NCBI GenBank assembly: GCA_002205965.3
Contig: NADL03000596.1
Location: forward strand, 62,001-126,000
Length of the DNA stretch: 64,000 nt
Direction: 5' to 3'
Source: Kappaphycus alvarezii
Lineage: Eukaryota > Rhodophyta > Florideophyceae > Gigartinales > Solieriaceae
A program made the translations under genes and the position numbers. Shown one piece after another: positions 3,291 to 59,915 of this stretch; within the stretch, counting starts at the first letter, position 1; every line of letters starts with the position of its first letter. The notes under the pieces are model-generated. The model was not told the DNA's origin and did no database searches. It saw nothing but the letters and a program-made list of their open reading frames with translations.

Positions 3291-4810
3291 CTACTTGATC
3301 TCCTTAATATGCCGACCTCCGACTCTGCGGCCTTCCGTTTCTGCGAATATGTAGGCTTGGAGGATTGCTCTTGGGCAGAATCGGGAATAGGGCCAGAAAC
3401 CCGCAAATACTGCTGCACTTTGCCTTCGAGCGCCTTGCACCTGTTGTGGTGTTGCTTCTTCGTCGACATGCGACACTGGGTGGGACTGGATGGTCCCACC
3501 AGACTTCAACTCCAACTCTACTTCTGGGCGTTGACCTTGTTGCGACGGTTCTGCTTGCTCGACAGGGGTTGCTTCTTCAGAAACATCCGACACTGGGTAG
3601 GGCTGGCCCGTCCAACCGTTCTTAACATCCACCTCGCCACTTGATCCAGTTAATTCATCGTCACTTCTTTCATCTCCGAATGGGTTTCCGGACTGTCCAG
3701 TCTCCTGTACATGTAGAGATTCCTGTAATATAACCAATGGGTCATGAACACCCTTGTTTCGTATGAAAAGCTCCGTTCGCTTGCGTAAGAGAGTGATATC
3801 GTCCTGTGCGAATGATGGATGACAACCCATTTCAACGAACTCTAAATCCCCATAGAATGAAGATACCACAAGAACTCTCGTCGCGCTGAGCCGGTAAGTT
3901 CAGAACCTGTCGGAAAGACCAGGTATCCATATTTCTGCACCTGGGCTCCATGTCCGGAATCTTGGGCATGATGAAGCGCTCTTCTTCCTGAAGGTACTTG
4001 AAGACGTACGTTTTTTCCTTTTCATAGTACGTGTTTTCCACAAAAGCCTTGTCCTTTCCATTCACCATTGGATCATATACTGATACGTACCTCCCTGTAA
4101 TGTCCACGAATATTGCAGCCCAGTGTGAATCACTAGCGTGGTATGAGGTCAGGATCGTATGGACATTAAGAATGGTGTACTTTCCTCTCTGCAACCAGGA
4201 CTTAACATGCTCATGACAATTAACATGCTCATGACAATGCCTCCGTCTACCTGACATCAATCGAACCATGAAAAATGAACTGAACACATGCACCCTTCGC
4301 TTCGCGTCCTTGTTCTCCATATCAACGCGATCAACGTTTCTTGAATTCAGCGACATACAAACGAATTGACAATTTGGTCATCAATCCATCGGTATTCTTG
4401 AGGTTCTAGAAAGGAGCCAATTCGAAGCATATGTTCGTCGTGTAAAACAATTGTATCCCAATGCAACTACATCGAATGTTGCATTTCCTCTTTTCAGTAT
4501 ATCTATTTCTTCACGATTGAGAAGCCGTAGAACTCGATCCTGGGAAGTGCACATCTTCAACTGATAGGGACCGGCGGGTCTCGGTGACCGGATAGGGTCT
4601 CTTTCCACTATCGAGTGGAGAGTTAGATTCAAGTCGGACATTTTCCCTCGGAGTGGGGGAGGTAGGTTCAGGAGGGTCCAAGGGAAACTGCAAAATTGAG
4701 TCGAAATTTTGATCAGTTTCGCGGGTTTTCGCCATCGGCTTGACAACATCTTCACCTTCATGAGGGTTTTCAGGATCGATTTCATCCACAGAGGGGAGGG
4801 GCTTCTTCAT
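3291..4810 (-). pseudogene. Ulp1-like (C48 family) cysteine protease, frameshifted
   Basis: Read on the minus strand from 4810: an acidic N-terminal region (MKKPLPSVDEIDPENPHEGE), then RWIDDQIVNSF near 4350-4375, which matches the WLNDxxI substrate-binding signature of Ulp1/SENP proteases. Next come VHVFSSFF, the catalytic-His segment DSHWAAIFVD, the Asp in VYDP, and the Gln/Cys segment AQRDESSCGIFIL. After one more shift YGDLEFVEMG and DDITLLRKRTELFIRNKG follow, the normal end of the fold, and then a Glu/Gly/Pro-rich tail. At least three frame changes break it: near 4545, at 4345-4355 and near 3865. All catalytic positions are present. Such proteases cleave Ubl conjugates or precursors, and are common passengers of large eukaryotic DNA transposons and of adenain-bearing elements. 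The gene is divergent from the ParB-like gene. Confidence 0.8.
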
Positions 4811-8725: not shown

Positions 8726-11700
8726 GTGCCTTTCCTAATAACAGTGGAAATGTGGAAAGATTACTTGCCGCATATTGTCAAAGCCATATTCAAGGACAAA
8801 AGGCCTGGCTCATCTCGTAACATTCCTCTGTCGTGGGAAGAACAAGCAGACTGGCCAGTCCCTGGTGTCACCGGATTCATTTACATTGAAAAATCAACAC
8901 ACATATCCTACAACAGCCCTCCAACAGGCTCATGCAACAACTCGTCAGTACCTCCCCAGCAATTTCATGTCCACACTACGTCACATCAAGATCCAGGAAG
9001 TATTTCCGATGCAACTCACTTTCAAGACTTGGCGTTGGTGACGTCTCCCATTCCGTTACCCTTCGTAAACGGTGTTCGTCCTCTACTTCCTAGTCTTCAA
9101 AGAAGAACTGAAGCACAACACGGTAGAGGGGGGAGAAAAAGGGTCTATCAGCTGCATTAAGACAAGCAAATCTCCCAAAATGGATCGGTGCCCATTTCGT
9201 AACAAGTTTCATTCAGATAACTGGTGGAGCTTCTCTCCTTCTGATTGATGAAATTGGTAGGGAGTTGCAAAGTCATCTCGTCTACAACGGCTGGCGTAAA
9301 TCATTACAAGAAATTCTTGAATATTCTTCATCTGTCCCGTCTTCTATTTGCAAGACTTTTAACTCTTTCCCAATTGTGCTTATTTCGCCTGTACTCTCAA
9401 AGTAACTTTTTCTCATACGGGGTTAGACGGACACGTTATGGATCGAAACTTTGTCACCTATTGGATGGATGAAAATGTCTCTTTCATTGCTCTTGTATCG
9501 GAAGTACTGCGTTTCGCATTCGGCAGTCCTCCTCGTCCGCCAACTGCGTTTTTGGGACCGACCAGTCCCTTACTGTCTACGTTGCAAGTCGTTGACCTCC
9601 ACTTTATAGCTCATTTCTACCTCACTTTCTGTTCCCGAAAATCTCGTGTCCAAGCTTTCAGTAATATTTACAGGATTTGGTCTGCATAGTACTTGGAAAT
9701 GGGACCTTGACCGGAAGATTGGAACATTACCGCTCATGCGTAACTGCATCTGTTGACGCAAAAGTAGTACCAATAACGCCAACTGTACGATCCGTAGGTA
9801 CAATTCGAACTCTATGCCAAATGATGTTGCGACTTATGACAGAGAAGCCCATATTATCCCTTTTCTCATGCAACTCTTGTCAAGTGGATGGCCGCCCTAG
9901 AGTCATCTGTGTTGATGGTATTCAACAAGGTTATTGCAGAGCCAGACAAGTGCAAACTCCTAATCTATCACAACGATGTGAACCTATTCCAGCGAGCGAT
10001 GCAGTGTCTTTCGGAGGAACAAGCCGTCCAGGATCAAGGTTCTTCCGAAAGGCAAGCTTTGTGGAAGTGTTGAGGGATGCGTTACGCGGGACAGTTCTAT
10101 GTTGCAAGAAGAATTACATTGAGGATTTCGTTCATGTCATCAGGATGTTTGATGACTCCATATTACCTCTATCGTTTTTCGCAAGTTCTATTTGCGGTCG
10201 CACTCCAAATGATCACTCCAATGATATCGGTGACATTTCTCATGTCATACCAATGCGCGAGCTAAACAGAGATATTTTTCATTCCTTACTGTTCTCTTCA
10301 GATTGCTGAAGCCTCTTCATGATTCTCTAAAGTTTCATTGTTCGCATAGTCAAGGTTACATATAAGATCACGGTGGTATTATCTCTTCGGTGGAACAAGG
10401 CATTGCTTTTTATCCATATATGAATACCTCCATACCAGGACCGGCCAGTATTGAGCCAGACAGAGATCCCACTCGCGGTATGCACATCAGTTCGGGAGAA
10501 AATTCGTAGGGTGGGACATGTCCAGCAGATTCCAATATTATCGCTTGTTTCGTACCTCGTTTCTTTCCTTGAAGGTCCTTGCCAGGATCATCTGATCGCG
10601 GATGGTGTTTATTGGCTACCGCATTTCATGGTTGGGGGCCCATGCGAAAGGGTTTGTCGTCGAAAGATGTTTGATGCCTACCTCATGTTTGCAATGGGTC
10701 CACGTACCCATTTCATACCAAGAGTGAGGTTATTTCTCTGGAAAATTTGGGTTACGGATGTCTGGATGACAGTTCTTTCACTTCGAAACCTGGTGAACAA
10801 CCCTACCCTCATCGAAGAAACACATCAACGCTCAATACTCCACACAAATAGATTACTTTACACTGCGTTGTTAAATGTCACTCAACTGGAAACATTGTTT
10901 CCATTTGACGGTAAGCAAATCCGGAGGGGATTGGTAGGGTTTTTCTGGCAAGTGTATTGTGTGTCCGAACCTTTTACACTTACTATGATGCTCCGCTTCG
11001 CAATTCATCACCAATATCGTATGCAGCAACATGGAACCTGTTCCTTAAGGATCAATTAAGGGTTCTTATGGCTACAAAATTTCCGGACCGCCCAGTCTTC
11101 CCCTCCCATCTTGATGACGCACTTTCTACTGGGAACTATTTCCCAACTTTGGAATAGGTTCGTCTACTTCCCTTCAATCCAGAAGAGGTCATTGAAAATA
11201 AGCTATCCGATCAACTGGGCCCTTGCGTTAGGACTTTTACCAAGCCCAAGACTCCTATACACCAGGTGCAGTTCTCGTTACTTGCCCTTGTCCACATCCT
11301 GTATGTTACGAATTCAAGGTATTGTATCGAAATGAGGGACCAAAAGTGGTTTGGATATTCTCATATCAAGGTTTCTTCAGCTTCCCTGGTACATCATTTA
11401 TGATTTCGCTTGTGGTTTGTATGCAAGCGCAATTAATTGTCTTTGGTGGGCATTGACTGACACTATTATTGTATCCGACAGATTTCATTCATCAAATCAT
11501 AAGGGTTGTTCCCCGGCTTCCTTCCCATCGCCCACTCAGATCTCGACAGGAGTAACAGTGTGTCACACGAACAACGAAACAGGGGGATCAAACTTCTTGG
11601 TAGGAGTTACGAAATTTGACCAGGAGCTCTACACTTCTCTCCTCGCATATCACAACGTGATTGACAATATACGGGCAAAAGCTCAGAGTACTCAAGAATA

Positions 11701-15180: not shown

Positions 15181-16362
15181 TCTCCGAGGGTAGAGATAGG
15201 GACGGGCACCAGCCTACTTCTGGCGAAAAGACGCGATAAAGGTCTGTGTTTAGATCAGTACTGTAGTAAGTAAAAATCTCTAAAAAATAAGAAATGGACG
15301 AGATATACCGTACTCCAGCTTCACCTCAAGACCGCATTTACTCAATGACCTACATACCACCCTGACAATGGATCTGGGTCCGTCTTCCGCAAACGAATGC
15401 TCCCTTTGAGAAGAGAGTTACAAAACTCGAAAGTCGCAACACTGTTTACGGTAAGCTCCAAAATTTTGCATAGTAACTTCAATGTCGCGTGCGTGATTCA
15501 GTGCGTCAAGACCGAGTGAATATTTCTTATCAAGAACCACCAAGGCGGACCTGTGTGCAATGTTATGCACAGATAAGTAATATTTCATTGGAAATTCAAA
15601 CCTCGTTTCAAAATCTAGGGCACCAGATTGATTATTCACGGGTAAATACCTTTCTCTGCGCCGTCACTTCGGATCAAGTTTGATAACCAATATGATGGGC
15701 CATTCCTAGGCCAGGCTGCATGCCCTATTTTATTTTTCTAGTGGCAGGGCTAGCACAGGTATACTGATACTGGCCGTTTTTCCACTATATCCTTTTCGGG
15801 GACAATACGGCGGAGATGGTGCAATAAGCAATAAGCTATCCTTCAAATGAGCAAAGACAATAAAAGAATTCGAAGCCATATCAAGGAAGCCGGTGCTCTC
15901 TGATTTATTTACAACATCTAAAGGGACACATCTAAGGTGTAAAGATATTACTAGTGGGCTGCTGAGCCTTACGTTGCTAAAGACCGGGTGTGAGCGAACT
16001 CACCGAACTCTGTCAAAAAGCTGTATCCTCACAATGATCTGATTATAAAGGTCGAGCTGATTTTCGACGCTCGTTTGATTCGACCCTGCTCATGACCCAA
16101 GCGTCCTAAAGAACTAGCAATACAGTGTGGCGTTATAAAGTCAAAGTGCCGTTTTAACACAACGCTGTTTTTGCATGGCCCTGCAATGACCGATTAAAGC
16201 ATGTTCCGCACCCACAAATTCACGGATAACTCCCTGAGGCAGGGCAACATATGGCCAACGGTGGCATTCCTAGTGACATTCCGCATTGCAATTAACAATT
16301 CGCAATATACCGGACAGTATACTTGTGCTTTTGTCAATAGACTACGGAAAGTGCAACTTGCA
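15181..16362. other. No supported gene
   Basis: Only short overlapping open frames without recognisable motifs. No long repeats seen. Confidence 0.35.
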
Positions 16363-17187
16363 GGGCCACTAAAATTGACTAGCTTTGAGGCCGGAGGCAA
16401 AATTCTGCATGTTGCGGGCTACGACCAATCGCTGAAGCTGCACACGTGGACCAAATGGCATAGCTGAGCTTCTGATAAAGCCGAAATGACACCTTCGCCT
16501 TCGAGCTTCCGATACAGGCCGCGATGGCAGCCGCATACTCGTCGACCACCTTGGATATGGTCTCCGACGGGCATCCCAGGGAATCAAAGGCTAGCGGGAC
16601 AAACTGCCAGCCGAGTTGCGGGCGTCCAGGTGAAGCATGGCCAGGAATGGCAGCGATTTTGGTCGCGAAGTCTCTCAGTTTTTGTCGTTCAGCCGCATTG
16701 GCGGCAGCACGCGCTTCCCGCGCTCACTTGGATAGGAAGCACTGTTGGAAAGGTGAGGAGACTGTGATGTCATAGGTAACCGGGAGAAGGGGAGTAGTGT
16801 TTTCCGGAGAGGTAGTCGGTGGACCAGGATGTCGGCAGGTCGGCGTCAAGTCTGGAAGTAAATTTGGGACTTCATAGTAGACGCCAGCTCCAGCGCTTCG
16901 AACAATTCTTTGCCGAGTACAGTACTGTACAGTATGATACAGAAGTATTGAGGAGCTCTTTTAGTTATAGATGTAGTGCTGAATGCTGTATTGTACAGCA
17001 CTGTACAGTACAGTACAGTACAGTACGCGGCTCGTATCGGAAGCTTTAAGGCGAAGGTATCCCTCTCGGCTTTATCAAAAGCTCAGCTATGCCATTTGGT
17101 CCACGTGTGCAGCTTCAGCGATTGGTCGTAGCTCGCAACATGCAGAATTTTGCCTCCGGCTCCAAAGCTAGTCAATTTTAGTGGCCC
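16363..17187. mobile_element. Non-autonomous inverted-repeat (TIR/foldback) element
   Basis: The left arm 16363-16523 is the reverse complement, with scattered mismatches, of the right arm 17027-17187. Both ends start GGGCCACTAAAATTGACTAG when read inward. The arms are about 160 bp and the interior about 500 bp. The left end reads CAGGGCCAC, reminiscent of hAT-type termini, but no convincing 8-bp target duplication is visible in the flanks. The interior encodes no recognisable transposase, so it is a MITE-like passenger. It ends about 530 bp upstream of the GH6 coding sequence. Confidence 0.75.
16918..17027. repeat. GTACAGTACTGTAC microsatellite tracts
   Basis: Two tracts of alternating GTACAGTAC/TGTAC words (16918-16940 and 16987-17027), themselves self-complementary, lie at the inner edge of the right inverted-repeat arm. 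The same words recur at 17226, 18690, 20598, 27696-27760, 34411 and elsewhere. Confidence 0.7.
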
Positions 17188-17633
17188 TTTACAAATATTG
17201 AAGAAAATTAATGAGCAAAATTAGACAGTACTGTACAGCAGCACAGCACCGAACCAAACCGTGCAGGGCAAAATGAAAAAATTTGGCATTGCTCTGTCCT
17301 CACAAACTCGCTCAAATGTTGTCCTGATGTTCGGCGACTGTGATTGCAGGAATCTGTTTAAACAGCACTTGCGGACGGAAGAGTAGATGCGATCAAGGTA
17401 ATGAGTGTTGGCCATTCTCTGGACACTTAATCCGGGTGCTGACGAACCGAGCACCATCAGTCCAGTTTACTTCCGCTAATTGTTTGAGCCCGGGCCCAAA
17501 TTCATCGCGCTGGAAGTTTGCGTTGTAACCAACGAGACGAATTCCAAACATGATAACACATCAGGACAAATTCAATTGACTAACCAGTGCTCACAGTTAG
17601 GTACTAAGCCCCTGCTTGTCCCATAACTAAACT

Positions 17634-17712: not shown

Positions 17713-18708
17713 AGCGACTTCTCGGTGTCTACTAGTATCGCGAATTGTGTCCACGGGGTAATGTTTCGCAGGAACACGCTCCAAATACCTCCAATGGCCT
17801 GTCGGAAAGGCTCTGCACATATCCCCCTTAGCAGTAGATTCATGGATTCAAGAAAACAAGTACGAAAGACCAGAGTTGGCACAGCTATTCAAAAGCACCT
17901 TGCGAACAAACCTGTATTTCAGTGGATTGGAGATTGGACAGTTGACCCGAGAAGCAAAGCCAGGGAGCTCGTTGAACAAGCCAAGGCGAACAAAGCGTTG
18001 TACCAGATTGCTGTGTACAATATACCAAATCGAGATGCCGGGGGGTTCTCTGCCGGTGGCTCTGGCTCGAGAGACGTCTACCTTCGATGGATTGATCAAG
18101 TCGCTGCCGGTATTGGCTCTGCGGGGGGAATTGTTATAATAGAGCCTGACGCCGTTCCTCACGCAGCGGAGTTCAGCAGTCATCAGAAAGAGCAACGACT
18201 GGAACTTGTGAGGGAAGCCACATTTCGACTTCGGAAGAAGTGCAAGGCTGCTCACATTTACATCGACGCAGGTCATCCCGATTGGTTAACCGTTCCGGAT
18301 ATCACTGCATTGCTTCTAGGCCGGAATTCGATATGCAAACGGCATATCTTTGAACGTGTCTAACAGTCAGCGGACAGAAGACTGCTTCAGGTACGGGGAG
18401 GAAAATCGTCCAGAATATTTCTATGGATCACGGAATTGTCATTGACACATCCAGAACGGAGCCGGGCCCCCGCCACCAAAGGTGACGGGTCCTGATGCCT
18501 GGGCGAATCCACCATCAAATCGAATCGGTGCGGCACCACGCTTCGTGTGGAACCACCGAACATCTTTACGTCCCGACTGCACGCACTTGTGTGGGTTAAA
18601 CCGCCTGGAGAAAGCGATGGAGCTCATGCTGGGGCACCCCTGCAGGCGAGTTTTGGCCAGAGGGAGCCGAGCGCCTGCTCAGCGACGTACAGTAGACTGT
18701 ACAGATGA
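17713..18708 (+). pseudogene. Glycoside hydrolase family 6 (cellobiohydrolase/endoglucanase), frameshifted
   Basis: From 17713 the frame reads to 18363. It shows KPVFQWIGDWT, IAVYNIPNRDAGGFSAGGSG, and VIIEPDAVPHAAEF with the catalytic-acid Asp of the GH6 EPDAxP motif, then YIDAGHPDWL. After a shift near 18330 come VSNSQRTEDC, GIVIDTSRTEPGP (the NGxGP-type loop), AWANPPSNRIG (the WCNPPGRxLG equivalent) and LHALVWVKPPGESDG, ending at 18708. Together these are the complete catalytic-core signature in the correct order at about the normal length (~300 aa), split over three frames. GH6 enzymes hydrolyse beta-1,4-glucan and are normally secreted. No CBM or signal peptide is visible; the first exon may precede the intron at 17634. 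The three frames suggest a pseudogene or indel errors. Transfer from a bacterium or fungus is possible but untested. Confidence 0.85.
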
Positions 18709-20656: not shown

Positions 20657-21067
20657 TGTTAAATACAGTGTACATATAGTTTATTTATGTACTATTTACA
20701 GTCCTTTAGGATAACTAATTTGCCCTTACTACTATTTCTATCCTACGTAGTCTATATTTTCTCTATCCTATTGTACTGTTAGCGATGCCTGTTAGGACTT
20801 CTATAGTGTAAGGGTCACTAGGACCGTCCGCAGGACTATCCGCTAGGGAATGTAGCTAGTAGTAAGTAGATGTGCTAGAGATAGTCGACGGCATCTACTG
20901 CCTATAAAAGGCCTCACCGCCTTGGGCACTGAAGTAAAAAGAGTAACCACAATTTTATTCTCAACCTACTCAACTGTTCTACACTAGCAAAAACGTGTAC
21001 GTTTTTTTCAGACTCGCCGCTAACGCCGCCGTCTGCTTTTTACTCTAACCCTTGAATTTTCGCGACA
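20657..21067 (+). repeat. 5' LTR of the copia element
   Basis: Begins TGTTAAATACAG and ends TTTTCGCGACA. Matches 26984-27398 along its full length apart from four single-base indels. Confidence 0.95.
20903..20910 (+). promoter_or_regulatory. TATA box in the 5' LTR
   Basis: TATAAAAG inside the LTR, the likely core promoter of the element; the transcript would start some 25-35 nt downstream. The same box occurs in the 3' LTR at 27231-27238. Confidence 0.6.
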
Positions 21068-21229
21068 ATCCGGATTTACCGTTTTTCGGGGAATTTAAGA
21101 AGTAAGTCTATTCGCTATTCGATAGTGAAAATATACCTATTTGTCCTATTTCCGCGTTGTTTCAAGCCACGTGTAAGCCGGTAAATACTGACACATACGT
21201 TTATTTTTGATTCTTTTTGAACACTATCC

Positions 21230-26983: not shown

Positions 26984-27398
26984 TGTTAAAATACAGTGTA
27001 CATATAGTTTATTTATGTACTATTTACAGTCCTTTAGGATAACTAATTTGCCCTTACTACTATTTCTATCCTACGTAGTCTATATTTTCTCTATCCTATT
27101 GTACTGTTAGCGATGCCTGTTAGGACTTCTATAGTGTAAGGGTCACTAGGACCGTCCGCAGGACTATCCGCTAGGGAATGTAGCTAGTAGTAAGTAGATG
27201 TGCTAGAGATAGTCGACGGCATCTACTGCCTATAAAAGGCCTCACCGCCTTGGGCACTGAAGTAAAAAGAGTAACCACAATTTTATTCTCAACCTACTCA
27301 ACTGTTCTACACTAGCAAAAACGTGTACCGTTTTTTTCAGACTCGCCGCTAACGCCGCCCGTCTGCTTTTCTACTCTAACCCTTGAATTTTCGCGACA
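26984..27398 (+). repeat. 3' LTR of the copia element
   Basis: Begins TGTTAAAATACAG and ends TTTTCGCGACA. Collinear with 20657-21067. The four differences are each an extra base in this copy, at A-run, C or T positions. Confidence 0.95.
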
Positions 27399-27695
27399 AC
27401 TAAGTGCTAACCGGTTGGTCCACATAGGGAACAGTCTCAAATACTAAATAAAGTACTCAATATTGTTGTCTGCACCTCTGCATCTACATTTTGTTCAAAT
27501 AAAAGAATTTATTTATTTAAAAATTGACAACATTACTAATTTACTCAATTATTCAGCAACTCGGCAAATCAACGGCCCCCTCATGGAAATATAAAAAACC
27601 TACATATGTTCAGTCCAAATAGTTACAGCATTTGAGTAGTTCTTGACCGTATGTACAGCGAAGGAGTCAAATTGAGGGTAAGTAGGGTTTTTAGA

Positions 27696-53024: not shown

Positions 53025-53558
53025 TCAAGAGAGGATTCGTTCATACGCTTTGTGCTGGAATAAATATTTTGTGGCAGTACTTTTGCTTTCAATTCCTGCT
53101 CGGGTCAAGCGTAACCACTGCCTTCCTTCTTTATTCGAACTCCACGCGTCCCCCCCTTCCTTTTTGCATGCCGCCAAGACAGTTGCGGCATACAGTAGCG
53201 AGCCATCCTGGGCCTCCTGTCGGGACATCTGTCCCGCCAATATGCCCTCCGCCTGACTGTATGCCACTCTCCAGCATACAGGTGCACATCTCCCTTCCTT
53301 TCCTTTCCTTTTTTTTCCTGACTCTGCTGTGCTCCCTCGAGCTCCTGCCACCTTTACTCCGTTACCCAGACGAGCCTCTCCATCTCGCCCTACTACTCCG
53401 ACACGCTCCTCCAAATCAGGCCCTGCTGCATCGGCAAGCTCCTCCACTTCAGGCCTTGCTGCACCGGCAAGCTCCTCCACCTCAAGCCTGCTACGCCCTT
53501 CTCCCCACCCCACCCTCCGGCAACGGCTCCCTGTGCCCGCTCTGCGACTTCCACACAC
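53025..53558 (-). pseudogene. Gag N-terminal fragment of a second gypsy copy
   Basis: A 177-codon minus frame. An Ala/Glu/Gly-rich repeat region (EVEELAGAARPEVEELADAA) is followed by AQDGSLLYAATVLAACKKEG. The DNA 53087-53235 is a direct repeat of 59757-59912 in the gag of the neighbouring gypsy element, same orientation, about 85-90% identical. Sequence on both sides of the repeat differs between copies, so it is not an LTR. Likely a fragment of a related element. Confidence 0.55.
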
Positions 53559-53741: not shown

Positions 53742-54966
53742 ATGGCGCGCACTAAACAGTTGGCGCGAATCGGTACCATCGGGCGAGTACCCTGTGTGGA
53801 ACTGGCGAAGAAGGCTACGCGTACCCCGAGGGTCGCAAAGATGCCGCCACCGAAAAGCCATGTCTCGTAAGCGGCGCTTGGAGGGAAGGTCAGACATCAC
53901 CAAAGTCTTATTACTCGGAGATGATTTCCAGATGCCCTAGGCCATCTACACCTCCTTAGGGGGATGCAAGGTGTATCGAGTCGATGCAGACGAACTCGAA
54001 GAGTTGTTTGGCCCTCACGTAACCCCTAAGTTACGCAAAGGTGCGGAACAGAGCTCACCCAGGAAGACGCCTTTCGACTTGGCTTGACGGAATCCTTGCA
54101 CGACCACCGTTTCTATGCTGAGAGGGTTGAAGAAGAGTAGGCGATTCGCGCCCTGCACTGGGACGAGGAGGAAGGTTCCTACAAGGCGGAGGATTCTGGC
54201 ACTGTTGATAATAATTCGGTCCTTCTTTACGCTCTTGCCTTTTCTGGTAGTAGGGCGGACAATGATCATTCAAAAGCTCCAAATGGTGAATTCTCCATCG
54301 GAACTGGGGGCCGCCTTGGAGCCGTCCGCTACATCCATGGTTGGTCTTAAATTCACAAAGTAAGGTGTCTCATTCTCTCGTGCGCACGCTCACGTGAACA
54401 GCGGGTTCTCTGCTCTATCCTTCTTGCAGATCCGTACACCGAAGTTATCTTCCGGGACAAATCCGACTCGTGCCTTGGCTATGAGATTGCCAACGCCCCG
54501 TGGCAACTCGGGGAACCTTTGACCGCCGGGAGCGGGTTTAAATCTTCAAAAAAATACCCAGGAAGCCAAGGCCGACTTCCAACGAGGAGGTCGTGTCCAA
54601 AGTTTTAGGGACGGACAGAAGCTTGCCCCACCTCTTTTGTTCGTCCTTCGTCAGGTACTACCCTTTTATCCTTTCCTCACGGAAGTACTGTCTTTACCTC
54701 CAGATGTGCACGTCTTCACCTTTCAGGGGTCGCATGGGGTCTCCCATTGTGTGGCGATGAACGGCAAGACACGCCAAATTTGGGATTCGTGCGAGCCTCT
54801 TGCGTTAGCCCTTTCCCCCGAGGCACAGAAAGACTGTGTCGGACAGAACTCCGTGTTTATGTCCATCGAAGAAGTACACCGGTTCCTTATTGGTAAGGGC
54901 GGGAAACCTCGAAATCGCCGCCCCGGCAGTAATTACCTTTCGGCAGGAAGCGCGAGCGAGCCATGA
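53742..54966 (+). pseudogene. Gene with histone H3-tail-like N terminus and protease-like C-terminal region
   Basis: The ATG at 53742 starts MARTKQLARIGTIGR and runs to the stop at 53870 (42 residues). Aligned without gaps to the conserved H3 tail it keeps A1 R2 T3 K4 Q5, A7 R8, T11, G13, P16, L20 A21, K23 A24, R26, A31, K37 and H39. K9, K14, K18 and K27 are replaced. The next frame continues directly (MSRKRRLEGRSDITKVLLLG), with no histone fold. It passes through a Glu-rich region (ELTQEDAFRLGLTES; YAERVEEE stop AIRALHWDEEEG), then DNNSVLLYALAF, NPYTEVIFRDKSD and VSHCVAMNGKTRQIWDS. The last resembles the His…Asp part of papain-fold proteases; a Ser stands where the Cys nucleophile would be expected. 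A possible intron lies at 54360-54429. The gene is convergent with gypsy pol. Confidence 0.6.
54360..54429 (+). other. Putative 70-nt intron in the H3-tail gene
   Basis: Donor GTAAGG, pyrimidine-rich 3' half and acceptor TTCTTGCAG. Removing it joins a frame into NPYTEVIFRDKSD. Confidence 0.35.
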
Positions 54967-55099: not shown

Positions 55100-56120
55100 T
55101 TCTTTAGTACATCTTATATTTTCTCCTCCTCTTTGGTATCCGTTAGAGACTACTTGAGTAAACGAGCAGGGCTCTTACTGTAACGAACTAGCCTTCGAGA
55201 GTTAATTTCTTGGCGCATGACGCGACCCGTAGACGAAAACAATTCGTACCGTAGGTGATCAGCTTTGGTTACTCTGCACGTTTCGTAGAAGTAAAAACTC
55301 AAACCGGCCCATTTGCAGGTCTTTTGAATGCCGGACCATGTGCTACCAGCACTTCATCTCCTATATCGAAGTTCTTCTCCTTCTTCTTACTTTCCTTGGT
55401 TCCTTGGACTTAGCGGCTGCAGTAGCGCGCTAGTCCAGGGAACCAAGGCACGCTCGACTCGCCGACAATCTCTAGTAGCCTGTAATGAGGGCCTGCATCT
55501 GCGAGGGGCACTACTGGGTCGTTTGCTAGCATCCTTTTGTTGATGCCATACATCATACGAACGGAGAGGGAATGGGGCACGATCACGACGACGACAAATG
55601 TGAAGAACTTTTGGAAGGCGTTTCCGCTCATTCTCCTCTACTTTCCACAATTACTTATTAATAGCATGCTTGATCGTCCCTACCATCCTCTCCGCCCTCC
55701 CGTTCGCCATCGGAGCGTAAGCGAGAACTTCCTTCCATTCCTCGCCCTTACTACGCATGAATTGCTGTACCGAAGCGGCTATTAAGGCGGTGGCATTATC
55801 TGAGACAATCCTACTCGGTCAGAATCGAATAATTCTCATCTGCTGGATGAACGTACAACGGTACTTGCTTTCGAATCCTCCGTTGCACTTGCGATCAAGC
55901 ACCCTTCATATGTTCCACTGTGATCAGTACAAACCTTTTCCAGGACTTGTACGTCTTGAACGGGCCAGAAAGGTCAATAGATAAAGTCTCGATTAACCAG
56001 TGATTGGAGCTCGCAGGCTCTTTTTGTACGTCGGAAGCCTCCTCGCGTGTTGACAACGGTCGCATGAACTACAAATCTTTCACGTCTCAATAAACTACGA
56101 GCCACCCAAAGCGATCCCTT
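55100..56120 (-). pseudogene. Gypsy integrase
   Basis: CSSCDRCQHARRLPTYKK (zinc finger end), SIDLSGPFKTYKSWKRFVLI (first Asp), IVSDNATALIAASVQQFM (second Asp), AYAPMANGRAERMVGTIKHA (catalytic Glu). Then a GPY/F-like end with RVTKADHLRYELFSSTGRV and INSRRLVRY near 55200. No chromodomain is visible after it; instead the convergent H3-tail gene begins on the other strand. Confidence 0.8.
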
Positions 56121-56517
56121 ATGAACTTTCTTGTCGATCCCACATCTCAATATCCTAGGTCGTCATAGAACGTAGCCAGAATTGCCGCGCGCTGGCCCGG
56201 AGTCGCACGACTCGAAGTCCATCCTTCTCCCTACGTAACAATTGTCGCTCTACAGTATCAACTTCTTTGCGCTTCGCCTTACAGAGATTTTTCTGTTCGG
56301 ATATTTCTCTTGAACCTGGTGCCCCGCAAAGAAACTTGTCTCGTCCAGCAATTGTGGCTCGAAATCGGATACCTTAGGGTTTGCCAATTGAACGTTGGCA
56401 ACGAACCCCTCCGTCAAATTTTCATATCCCTCTTACTCTGTTCCTCTATAAGCTGATGAGAGAGATAATGAACCGCCCCATTGGAAGACCCCGGCGGTAC
56501 TTAACCTCTAAGTTGTA

Positions 56518-57447
56518 CTAGGCCATCAGATATAACCAACGTGCCAACCGTCCATGGATAACCTTCTTCTTACACGCTGTTTGCAAAGCATGGTGATCGG
56601 TGTAAATAACAGAAGTTTTCTCGGAGAGTAGGTAGACCCGTACCTTCTTCAACACGAACACGACACCGAGAGCTTCTCTTTCGCTAGTAGAGTACCAGCG
56701 CTCTTGCTCGGTCATTGTACGGGACGCGAATTAAATCGGAAGTACCTTCTCATCCTCCTTCTTCTGGGCCAGCACAACTCTAAAGCCACTCAAGACGCAT
56801 CCGTTTCAACAAGGAATGAGGAGTCAAAATCGTGAAAGGCAGTAATGCGCCGTTGTCAGCTTCTTCTTGAGATCTTCGAAATCGTCCTGCTCTTTCTGTC
56901 CGTTTAAAGGACTCCTTCTCGGTCGTAGCAGCATGTAGCACTGCAGATGTTCTGCTAAATTCCTTATAAACTGTCGATAGTGTCCGGCCAGACCGAGGAA
57001 AATCCTGAGCTCGGTTACTTTCTTTGGAGCCGAAGCCTTCAAAACGTCCTTGATCTTATCTTCGTCCACTTTAACCGCAGCGTCATTGACGACGTGGCCG
57101 AGCAGGTTCATCTTCGAGTGAGCGAAGCTGCACTTGGTCACCTTGATCTTCATTTTTTCTTCCTTAATCCTTTCGAAGACTTCCTTGCAAAAGCCGACGT
57201 GTTCTACCATGCTTTTGGAACCTTTAACCACTTCATCAACATAAACCATTGCGAACGACAAGCCTTGAAGAATGTCGTGCATCATCTTCTGGAATATCGA
57301 ATGTGCGTTCATTAACCCGAACGCATCACTTCGAACTTTTACGTTCCATAGCGATATACGAATGTCTTCATCTCTTTGCACTCCTCCGACATCCGCACCT
57401 GCCAGTAGCCCATATCGAGATCCAACATCGTGAAGACCTTGGCGCAC
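56518..57447 (-). pseudogene. Gypsy reverse transcriptase and RNase H
   Basis: NAHSIFQKMMHDILQGLSFA, the catalytic block MVYVDEVVKGS (YVDE instead of YVDD), NLLGHVVNDAAVKVDEDKI and LRIFLGLAGHYRQFIRNLAE are RT motifs. STSEREALGVVFVLKKVRVY and IYTDHHALQTA are RNase H motifs. Confidence 0.85.
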
Positions 57448-58099
57448 GCGATTACATCGAAGAGTTACTCAATCTTCGGCAACGGGCAACGGTGAGACTT
57501 CATGACTCTATTCAGCTGGCGGTAGTTGACAAAAAAACGGGGCCTTCCATCGTTCTTTGTCTCTATAACGGCAGGGAGTGACCACTCTGAGCTAGCAGGC
57601 GTGATTATCCCTGCTTCCAGAAGCTCTTTTCCCTACTTCTTCGCGACGTCATTGTGCTTGGGGGCACCCGGCGCGCCCTTGAGTGAATCGGAGAGTTTTC
57701 CGTCAACTCAAAGGAATGCACCACCGGGACGTTGGCCGGCTCTAGTTCGTTGATGTCCCAAGCAATGACGTCCGTGTCCTGCAGTGCCCTCACCAGTACG
57801 CTCTAGTACTTTCCTTCCAGATGCTTAACCTTCGAGGAGATTAGAGCAACCTGTTCTGCATCCCCGTCTTCCCACTAGACTCTCTGCCCTCTACTTTTCC
57901 TCAAAAATCCGGCTCGTAAGGTTCCTTGTTCAGGATTTCAAGCACCAGCTCATGCTCAGTATCTGATCCACTATCACTGCCCCCCGCGACCCTGATGAGG
58001 ATGTAGAGGGAAACTTCTCGTCCTCCGTCTCGTCGGAAGATGTGAAATACTCACTGTCAGTGCGCGTCCCATCGATCACGGGAGGATCGCTGAGTAGTG

Positions 58100-58500
58100 T
58101 CAAAGTACCTCCCTCTCCCCAACCGCCAGTGTGACCTGTTGACGTATGTAGCCAAGGTTCGCCTGCAGAGACTCCAGGGTCGGACTTCTGATAATGGCAT
58201 CGAACGGGGCTTTACACACTACCAAGAAATTCAACGGCACGACCAACCATCCACAAGACACCGGGACCTCTTCCACGCAGCCGAAAACTTCGGCAACCAT
58301 CCCGTCCGCGACGGTCACTTGAAAAGCCGTAGCGGTAGGGTCTAGTACCATTATCTTGCATAAATCCCATGACGTGATATTTGAACGGCTCCCGTGTCCG
58401 TCCCGTGCGCCTTTACCGCGATGACCTTCAACTGACGAGGGCTACCCGGTGGGTTAGCTACAAAGGCTTGAGTCATGGGAACAGTCTTCGCAATAAATCT
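58100..58500 (-). pseudogene. Gypsy aspartic protease
   Basis: KAHGTDTGAVQISRHGI carries the DTGA active site. After a shift FQVTVADGMVAEVFGCV and PFDAIIRSPTLESLQANLGY give the rest of the retropepsin fold. Confidence 0.7.
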
Positions 58501-58849
58501 TTTGAGTTGCTTCCTAGCTTCATCCCCATTCCCACGAAGAATTCGCCCAAAGTTCATCCCTGTATGGGCAGATGCAAGCTCCACGACCACATTATACTTT
58601 CCCACGTGGTCCTGCAAGCTGCTTGTTGCTTTCTGAGCTCTCCGGATCTTGCTCATTTTCTTAACGGTAGTTGGGAGAACCAAAGGTGGACAAACAATCT
58701 GTGCCTTGTTTATAAAAAGATCGATGTCCATTATGTTTTCCCTCCTCTGTTTTGGCAGGGCCTGACCCTCAGCATTCCTTTTGGCTGCGGCGACCGAATC
58801 ATTGTTCTGAGACTCGCGAACGACTGCCACGGGCTCTTCGTCTTCTTTT

Positions 58850-59915
58850 CCTTCAACTTGAGCTCTTCCCCGGAGTCGAACCTAGCCGCTGCCACCCCGA
58901 CTCGAAGATCGCTGTTGTGCTGCCCTTGAACCTGCAAGTTTTCTCGGAATGCCCCCTTCTCTGACAAAAGGTACAGTGAGTGTTCTTGTAGGGATTTTGT
59001 GGCCATTGGGTTGCGCAGTGACCCTTCTGCCAGCAATAGCTGCAACTGAAGTCCTCTTCGACAGGCGCCGCCGGTCCAGCCCTATCCATCTGCTTCTTCA
59101 AGAACAACGAGAGCTTGGCGAGGTGACCAAAGAGCTGATTGACCTTTTTTTAGAGCTTTTGCGTGCTCCTCTTGCGAAAACCCGGACGCTGTAGAATCTT
59201 CTTCAGGTCCAAAACCGCTTCCGATCCTTATCCGGTGGTTCCGAAAAATGCCTTCTGGTCGATATCAAATTCTCCTATCGCCTTCTTCAGTCTATTACGG
59301 TCCGCTGAGGCCCGATACATCAAGAGCTGCGCCAACCCCGGGTGTCCCGAGGCAGCTTTCCGAAGCAACCCGAACGACGCTGCATCACTGAGGCCCACCC
59401 TTCTGTATAGGGCGTCAATTCTTGCTAGTCAGCCTCTTATATCCTGTATCTCCAAACAGGCGACCAACACTCCGTTAACTTTTCCTCCGGGTTGGTCTTC
59501 TTCGTATCCTCGACGAGAAACTTGCTTTTCACTACGTCGTACTTCTGAGTCTCCTCGTTAAGGGCTTCATCCTGCGCGAAATTTTCGTAGCACCATTCAT
59601 ATTCCTTCCAGTCCAGATGCCAAAGAATCTGGAGAGCCTTCTCGATCGTTTTAGCCGCGTATCGCGAAACGTCGGACGACGAGGATCCGTCAAAGGAGAC
59701 ATGGGGGAATTGTTTTTGTTCATAATGCTATACCTTAGTAGTAGTTCCATGAAATTCTCGTGCTTTTACTTCCTGTTCGGGTCAAGCGTAACCACTGCCT
59801 TCCTTCTTTTTTCGAACTCTAAGCGCCCCCCCCTTCCCTTTTGTATGCCGCCAAGATAGTTGCGGTATACAGTAGCGAGCCATTCTGGGCCTCCCGTCGG
59901 GACACCTGTCCCATC
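58850..59915 (-). pseudogene. Gypsy Gag with double zinc knuckle
   Basis: An ATG-less minus frame from about 59735 reads EKALQILWHLDWKEYEWCYE, then VVKSKFLVEDTKKTNPEEKL. After shifts it reaches LFGHLAKLSLFLKKQMDRAG and two CCHC boxes, CSYCWQKGHCATQW (last Cys lost) and CTFCQRRGHSEKTC. The N-terminal ~150 bp (59757-59912) is the segment duplicated at 53087-53235. Confidence 0.75.

Follow-up and report, generated by a model that had tools for sequence, protein, structure and literature searches.

Why should an open reading frame (ORF) associated with mobile-element sequence begin with a recognisable copy of the N-terminal tail of histone H3? The question is raised by a 64,000-nucleotide stretch of the genome of the red alga Kappaphycus alvarezii (contig NADL03000596.1, positions 62,001 to 126,000 of the forward strand; hereafter the window), in which the frame at 53742-53870 on the plus strand translates as MARTKQLARIGTIGRVPCVELAKKATRTPRVAKMPPPKSHVS, that is, 42 residues followed by a stop. 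We found that this ORF is a degenerate accessory gene of a Ty3/Gypsy long terminal repeat (LTR) retrotransposon, lying antisense between pol and the 3′ LTR.

Aligned without gaps to the H3 tail, the window ORF is identical at 18 of the 40 residues that follow its methionine, compared to a mean of 3.98 (standard deviation 1.85) and a maximum of 14 identities in 200,000 shuffles of the same residues, and the resemblance reported in the initial annotation is therefore genuine. Searching the PDB with the 42 residues returned 111 distinct sequences at E ≤ 10, the best 60 of which were named as histone H3, H3 peptides, H3/CENP-A chimeras or Cse4; for such a short query the matches were weak (best E 0.014). 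The translation also confirmed the residue pattern first described, with K4 present and K9, K14, K18 and K27 replaced by I, R, V and T, respectively. The part imitating H3 comprises the methionine and residues 1-26 (MARTKQLARIGTIGRVPCVELAKKATR; 53742-53822, plus strand), as judged from the translation, the identities in excess of shuffles and the related copies described below, and represents a decayed copy of what we term lineage A. The remainder of the 42-residue frame runs to the stop (53823-53870, plus strand), after which the frame shifts, and tblastn and the six-frame view place a decayed protein body, with frameshifts and stops, at 53871-54882 on the same strand. No histone fold was found after the window tail: the downstream body is unrelated to H3 and the host H3 genes lie at separate places, which bears out the reported absence of the globular fold and excludes the possibility that the match is simply the 5′ end of an ordinary H3 gene. 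The non-histone sequence that had been noted in the next frame is indeed present, and it is the continuation of the same protein past a frameshift: in tblastn with an open copy from elsewhere in the genome (P0002 in locus L031), window positions 53742-54518, including the tail, correspond to residues 1-260, and positions 54553-54882 to residues 273-382. An intron considered for the window copy (GT..AG, ∼54360-54430) was rejected; the splice signals are not kept among 15 aligned relatives and most lineage-B rows stay in the ORF frame across the site, so the apparent intron is accidental.

To what extent the tail recurs was determined by searching the genome (336 Mb, 884 contigs) with several queries, the best 150 candidates being scored for each. 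The window tail matched 34 places (155 candidates) and full H3 matched 86 (399 candidates), while all 150 scored places matched with a lineage-D tail (450 candidates) and with a lineage-B tail (452 candidates). Of the 86 full-H3 rows, ten were set aside: five H3 genes of nearly full length (87-97% identity), a further exon with an H3 tail, and two genes that we label CenH3-like, represented by four exons. Three rows of the lineage-D search, corresponding to host H3, were set aside as well. Pooling of the window-tail, full-H3 and lineage-D searches yielded at least 181 distinct tail-only places, real H3 genes apart; in 12 of these the match starts no earlier than query residue 8, and at least 169 include the very start of the tail, both totals being lower bounds. 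The host's own H3 (C655, L071) carries a standard tail with K4, K9, K14 and K27. Intact copies, for which the initial annotation had advised looking, do occur elsewhere in the genome (for example P0002). Because of these genome-wide copies chance resemblance is excluded, and the proposal that the tail descends from or imitates H3 is supported. Relatives were sought in plasmids (DNA, distant mode), viral contigs and prokaryote genome contigs, collections that do not include eukaryote genomes, and none was found.

That the ORF belongs to a mobile element, as first proposed, holds, and the element can now be specified. On the minus strand of the window, antisense to the H3-tail ORF, tblastn revealed remnants of a Gypsy integrase (zinc-binding region and core, 55901-56333; 47-48% identity to a relative's integrase), a Gypsy reverse transcriptase (56983-57590; 66-68% identity, with an ORF at 56824-57444 matching Pfam RVT_1 at E 1.8e-11) and a Gypsy protease region (58103-58626; 58-59% identity). 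The element is assigned to Ty3/Gypsy because the order of pol is protease, reverse transcriptase, integrase, an order equally seen in relatives. A 152-bp direct repeat, 90.8% identical, marks what is left of the LTRs on the minus strand: the 3′ LTR in the retrotransposon's own sense at 53084-53235 and its 5′ partner at 59761-59912. Seen in the reading direction of the element, the H3-tail gene is antisense and sits between integrase and 3′ LTR. Twenty further copies read at 10 kb (L031-L050) have in common an element that starts ∼0.8 kb before the tail and carries pol on the opposite strand. LTR-sized direct repeats occur at comparable places in two of them (268 bp in L050, 274 bp in L047) and short LTR ends in another two (L043, L044); no LTR pair was seen in the remaining 16 of the 20 loci, most of the 10-kb stretches ending inside the element. 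A candidate polypurine tract and primer-binding site beside the LTRs were read by eye only. On the genome scale, a lineage-B integrase query matched at all 150 places scored (the best 150 of 7936 candidates). A tail and an integrase come within 6 kb of each other in 25 cases, and in 24 of them the integrase lies on the other strand, 0.7-2.7 kb downstream of the tail, chance alone predicting 0.8 pairs. Fifteen of the tails in these 24 antisense pairs came from the window-tail search and nine from elsewhere, including a lineage-H place (C458) and a lineage-G place (C92).

Genes in this position have been described before. Antisense additional ORFs of the aORF-3R type are known from Gypsy elements such as Grande (gene23), Retand, RIRE2, PvRetro13 and Boty, their function being stated as unknown and their proteins as having no clear similarity to others described, save for hits to SMC and transposase-28 domains, in a review of such ORFs (PMC7264820). 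The H3-tail gene resembles them in lying antisense between integrase and 3′ LTR, in being present in many copies (56 of 67 bodies of the B type are tailed) and in having a frame under selection (dN/dS, the ratio of nonsynonymous to synonymous substitution rates, of 0.28 for the ORF). It differs in carrying a histone tail, which none of them is said to do in that review (PMC7264820). By position, then, the H3-tail gene is an aORF-3R with a feature that the review describes for no other.

Two minor observations concern the sequence around these genes. The 40 bases before the ATG of lineage-B copies are strongly enriched in pyrimidines (fraction 0.65-0.925, compared to 0.57-0.65 further upstream), and the corresponding fractions for two lineage-A copies are 0.80 (L033) and 0.525 (L042); the tract might act as a leader or initiator signal for the antisense gene. 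In L043 a divergent lineage-C copy (K9M), near locus position 9131 on the plus strand, and a lineage-B element lie within a few kb of each other, which suggests that tail-bearing elements insert in clusters or into one another.

Is the encoded peptide under selection? Third codon positions are roughly fourfold more variable than first and second ones in the tails of 23 lineage-B copies, with minor-base fractions of 0.040 (position 1), 0.038 (position 2) and 0.171 (position 3). Among 16 B copies, the whole ORF has a dN/dS of 0.28, the tail one of 0.214 and residues 40-100 one of 0.201, as opposed to 1.18 and 1.39 in the other forward frames and 1.07, 1.43 and 0.34 in the antisense frames. Stop codons are likewise scarce in the ORF frame, at 33 of 5948 codons, each of the five other frames having 117-298. 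The tails of lineages A and B agree at 28 of 39 residues, whereas their coding sequences agree at only 68 of 117 bases. The purifying selection on the tail that the initial annotation had proposed to look for is thus evident in the B copies, and we are highly confident both in the identity of the ORF as an H3-tail-bearing accessory gene and in selection on the peptide that it encodes. The broken state of the window copy is what would be expected from a fortuitous match or from the inert relic of a captured H3 gene. However, such an explanation is contradicted by the shuffle test, the at least 181 places, the codon-position pattern and the dN/dS values, and we regard it as exceedingly improbable.

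The body that follows the tail is shared among lineages, eight of which (A-H) are distinguished below. Homology links the bodies of A, B, D, F and H, each of the ten pairs aligning locally with a score above those of all 300 shuffles (z 5.3 to 44), and the body of C is tied to them by a 34.5% match over residues 89-254. Lineage G lacks the first part but resembles B in the C-terminal one (z 8.5, none of 300 shuffles scoring as high), and compared with the first parts of A, B, D and H it gave no significant match in the same kind of test. No family was recognised for the body in Pfam or PDB. A papain-like cysteine protease was considered for the C-terminal half and rejected, as no credible Pfam, PDB or profile match was obtained and the order Cys...His...Asp was read by eye only.

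Whether bodies exist without a tail, which the initial annotation had named as grounds for abandoning its reading, was addressed with a body query that matched at all 150 places scored (the best 150 of 261 candidates). Sixty-seven bodies of the B type at ≥60% identity were retained, these being the top 70 rows minus C137 and C693 (split pieces with tails present) and C553 (51%). A tail was present at the expected place in 56 and was not detected in 11, two of which were read: C75 is rearranged and its tail is gone, while C780 retains a decayed tail that had escaped the search. Among the remaining 83 body rows, many of them split pieces, 41 have a tail. The tail is thus usual in lineage B and may not be universal in the wider family.

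What the tails have in common, and where they depart from H3, was assessed in 50 of them (30 of the 34 places from the window-tail search and 20 of the 61 further places from the full-H3 search), which were sorted by eye into eight lineages and one single tail, L059. Lineage A, that of the window, has K9L, K14R and K27T or N, the window copy itself having I9 and T27; lineage B has K9L, K14R and K27V; and lineage C has R8S, K9M and K27V. The seven tails of lineage D carry K9L (F at position 9 in one), keep K14, and have M27 in six and V27 in one, five of them reading ATKAARMS. Lineage E has R8N, with K9 kept, and K27R; lineage F has R2H (giving the start AHTKQ), K9R and K14R, with K27 kept; lineage G has K4N, with K9 and K27 kept; and lineage H has K4R, R8A, K14A and K27I. 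K4 is kept in 44 of the 50 tails, so that its retention, noted for the window ORF in the initial annotation, mostly holds across copies; R26 is kept in 48 and the exact ARTKQ in 31, while K9 is kept in 8, K27 in 7, and all three of K4, K9 and K27 in none. Position 9 is occupied by L, I, M or F in 38 tails and position 27 by V, M, F or I in 32, and L, I, M, F, V or W stands at one or the other in 39, counts that are non-independent (23 of the 50 tails belong to lineage B) and that lean to H3-like tails, the tails having been recruited by tail or H3 searches. Counted by lineage, a hydrophobic residue is found at position 9 in four of eight (A-D) and at position 27 in four of eight (B, C, D and H).

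The conserved residues bear on several explanations of what the tail might do. A Lys/Arg-rich leader captured from an H3 gene could act as a nuclear-localisation or nucleic-acid-binding signal with no mimicry as such. Yet conservation is no weaker at the uncharged positions (STGG, T11 and A21) than at the basic ones, T11 and A21 each being present in all 30 of the A and B tails, and a basic signal has no need of the ungapped register, which makes this an improbable account. SNAG-type mimicry of H3 is a known phenomenon, and the mostly kept first residues might similarly dock in the pocket of an H3K4 demethylase (LSD1) or co-repressor and redirect it; SNAG motifs are, however, much shorter, whereas conservation here extends to residue 26, and we give this proposal a slim chance as well. 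The retention of K4 and of exact ARTKQ (44 and 31 of 50 tails) could instead point to a free end that is bound by H3K4-type readers (PHD, WD40 and the like), the view taken in the initial annotation. Through it the protein or the integration complex would be directed to particular chromatin, and the loss of K9 and K27 would keep heterochromatin marks away. Against such tethering, K4 is lost in G (K4N) and H (K4R), lineage F reads AHTKQ, and no preference for Leu, Met, Val or Ile over Arg or Gln at positions 9 and 27 would be predicted; we consider it a possible but doubtful explanation.

As a whole, the data are probably best explained by a retrotransposon accessory protein that engages the host machinery binding H3 tails, its own tail most likely serving as a decoy, because most tails have lost K9 and K27 but preserve ARTKQ and R26. 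The gene product would be a protein of roughly 400 or more residues of which the first ∼27 imitate the H3 N-terminus. Upon removal of the initiator methionine it would present an H3-like free N-terminus in the nucleus, where it may contact host H3-tail binders, be they readers, writers or erasers. Since the silencing lysines K9 and K27 are absent from most tails, with Leu, Met, Val or Ile often standing in for them, the decoy itself could not be silenced, and it would draw the H3-tail-binding silencing machinery off the element. This decoy mechanism, taken by itself, we regard as plausible but short of probable. The comparison of copies suggests that jumping genes may imitate chromatin to interfere with their own silencing.

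A more specific form of interference is conceivable, in which tails with K9L or K9M and with K27M, K27V or K27I occupy the active sites of H3K9 and H3K27 methyltransferases as pseudosubstrates, in the manner of the K9M and K27M histone mutants and of EZHIP, and block silencing of the element. It would account for the hydrophobic residues at position 9 or 27 in 39 of 50 tails, for R26, the residue at −1 to K27, in 48 of 50, and for M27 in six of seven D tails, M9 in C and I27 in H. PRC2 is reported to be inhibited by Met or Ile, and not by Lys or Arg, at position 27, with Arg preferred at −1 (PMC6513997), and G9a to be bound more strongly by K9M and K9-norleucine peptides (PMC5030085). In the host genome the VEFS-box of the PRC2 subunit SUZ12 has four matches (G000 C474:1632382, C744:524577, C119:213421 and C635:188003), and the SET domain has 43. 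The C119 and C635 matches score identically and are perhaps uncollapsed haplotypes. Conversely, the commonest forms, Leu9 and Val27, are not those tested in the literature, the scheme does not extend to lineages E, F and G or to the single L059 (K or R at position 9; K or R at 27), and an H3K9 methyltransferase of the Pre-SET type was not detected in the host by a search that matched no control genome either. Active-site blocking is a tentative proposal. Equally speculative is its extension to the superfamily, by which Gypsy elements would encode “oncohistones” whose K9 and K27 replacements (Leu, Met, Val or Ile) trap H3K9 and H3K27 (PRC2) methyltransferases while the kept ARTKQ end holds or diverts binders of the H3K4 end. 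The Met/Ile forms of the oncohistone type are present as K27M in D, K9M in C and K27I in H, with Leu/Val in A/B, and are absent from E, F and G. Were trapping to take place, the lineage types (K9L+K27V, K9L+K27M, K9M+K27V, K27I and K4N/K9R) might, as a conjecture that we likewise hold only loosely, represent different arms-race solutions against host silencing. Pseudosubstrate or decoy action would account for residues 9 and 27 in A-D and H, and tethering for K4 in A-F; G is explained by neither.

Several observations weigh against, or qualify, the case for a selected tail that acts as a decoy on host silencing. (i) The codon-position signal is weaker in the seven copies of lineage A (0.110/0.161/0.198), and within B the constraint on the tail does not clearly exceed that on residues 40-100 (dN/dS 0.214 and 0.201). 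(ii) One antisense frame also has a low dN/dS (0.34), a value to be expected from third positions held in common with the ORF, although another cause is conceivable, and young, near-identical pairs have dN/dS of 0.5-0.7 whereas an old pair has 0.19, a pattern as expected of a gene selected while active and decaying after insertion. (iii) Between lineages, tails are 44-81% and bodies 25-37% identical, the tail exceeding the body in 15 of 15 pairs, but this comparison is biased to conserved tails because the places came from tail or H3 searches, as are the residue counts given above. (iv) Of the 57 bodies below 60% identity, a tail was detected in 19 and not in 38, the tail searches covering the best 150 candidates. 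(v) Lineage G retains K9 and K27. (vi) Searches of the host genome for Pre-SET (H3K9 machinery) and chromo-shadow (HP1) domains gave no match, and no control genome gave one either.

A decoy of this kind would have partial counterparts in known systems. Influenza NS1 reportedly carries a short H3-tail-like motif at its C-terminus; both it and the retrotransposon tail would be parasite mimics of H3, the latter being N-terminal, in register and ∼27 residues long. Closer in its residues is EZHIP/CATACOMB, together with the K27M and K9M mutants of H3, which similarly present an H3-like peptide with Met or another hydrophobic residue replacing a methylatable lysine and Arg at −1 (PMC6513997, PMC5030085, PMC12713659), features that lineages C, D and H match most exactly. 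EZHIP is, however, a mammalian gene with ∼12 internal residues resembling the surroundings of K27, as opposed to the first ∼27 residues of a retrotransposon protein, and its inhibitory action has been demonstrated, whereas that of the tails described here is a proposal. VANC of the Arabidopsis VANDAL transposons is likewise a transposon-encoded accessory protein proposed to counter silencing (PMC10398659, PMC5735166); VANDALs are DNA transposons, though, and VANC proteins bind DNA sequence-specifically, histone mimicry not being mentioned in the parts of these papers at our disposal (PMC10398659, PMC5735166). Searches of an open-licence collection of papers, with subscription papers mostly outside their reach, turned up no description of a retrotransposon protein bearing a histone tail.

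If the decoy reading is correct, transposable elements would fight chromatin silencing by histone mimicry at full tail length, with substitutions (K27M, K27I and K9M) that parallel those studied in human tumours and model systems. The role of the antisense accessory ORFs of Gypsy elements would then become a testable question, and the many naturally selected variants of the H3 tail could show, by the positions kept and changed, which contacts matter to host readers and writers.

The window contains further features, apart from the H3-tail element. ORFs with an integrase core (rve) and with aspartyl protease and RVT_2 matches below the Pfam cut-off lie between the two copies of a 416-bp direct repeat (20657-21068 and 26984-27399; 99.0% identity), and the segment 20657-27399 is probably a young Copia-type LTR retrotransposon. 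An ORF with an Ulp1-type C48 peptidase domain (3832-4353, minus strand; Pfam E 8e-17) possibly stems from another mobile element, and one with a glycosyl hydrolase family 6 domain (17725-18360, plus strand; Pfam E 3.7e-24) is probably an exon of a host gene. Finally, an inverted repeat of ∼163 bp, 92.6% identical, at 16362-17188 (16362-16523 and 17026-17188) perhaps represents the ends of a small DNA transposon.
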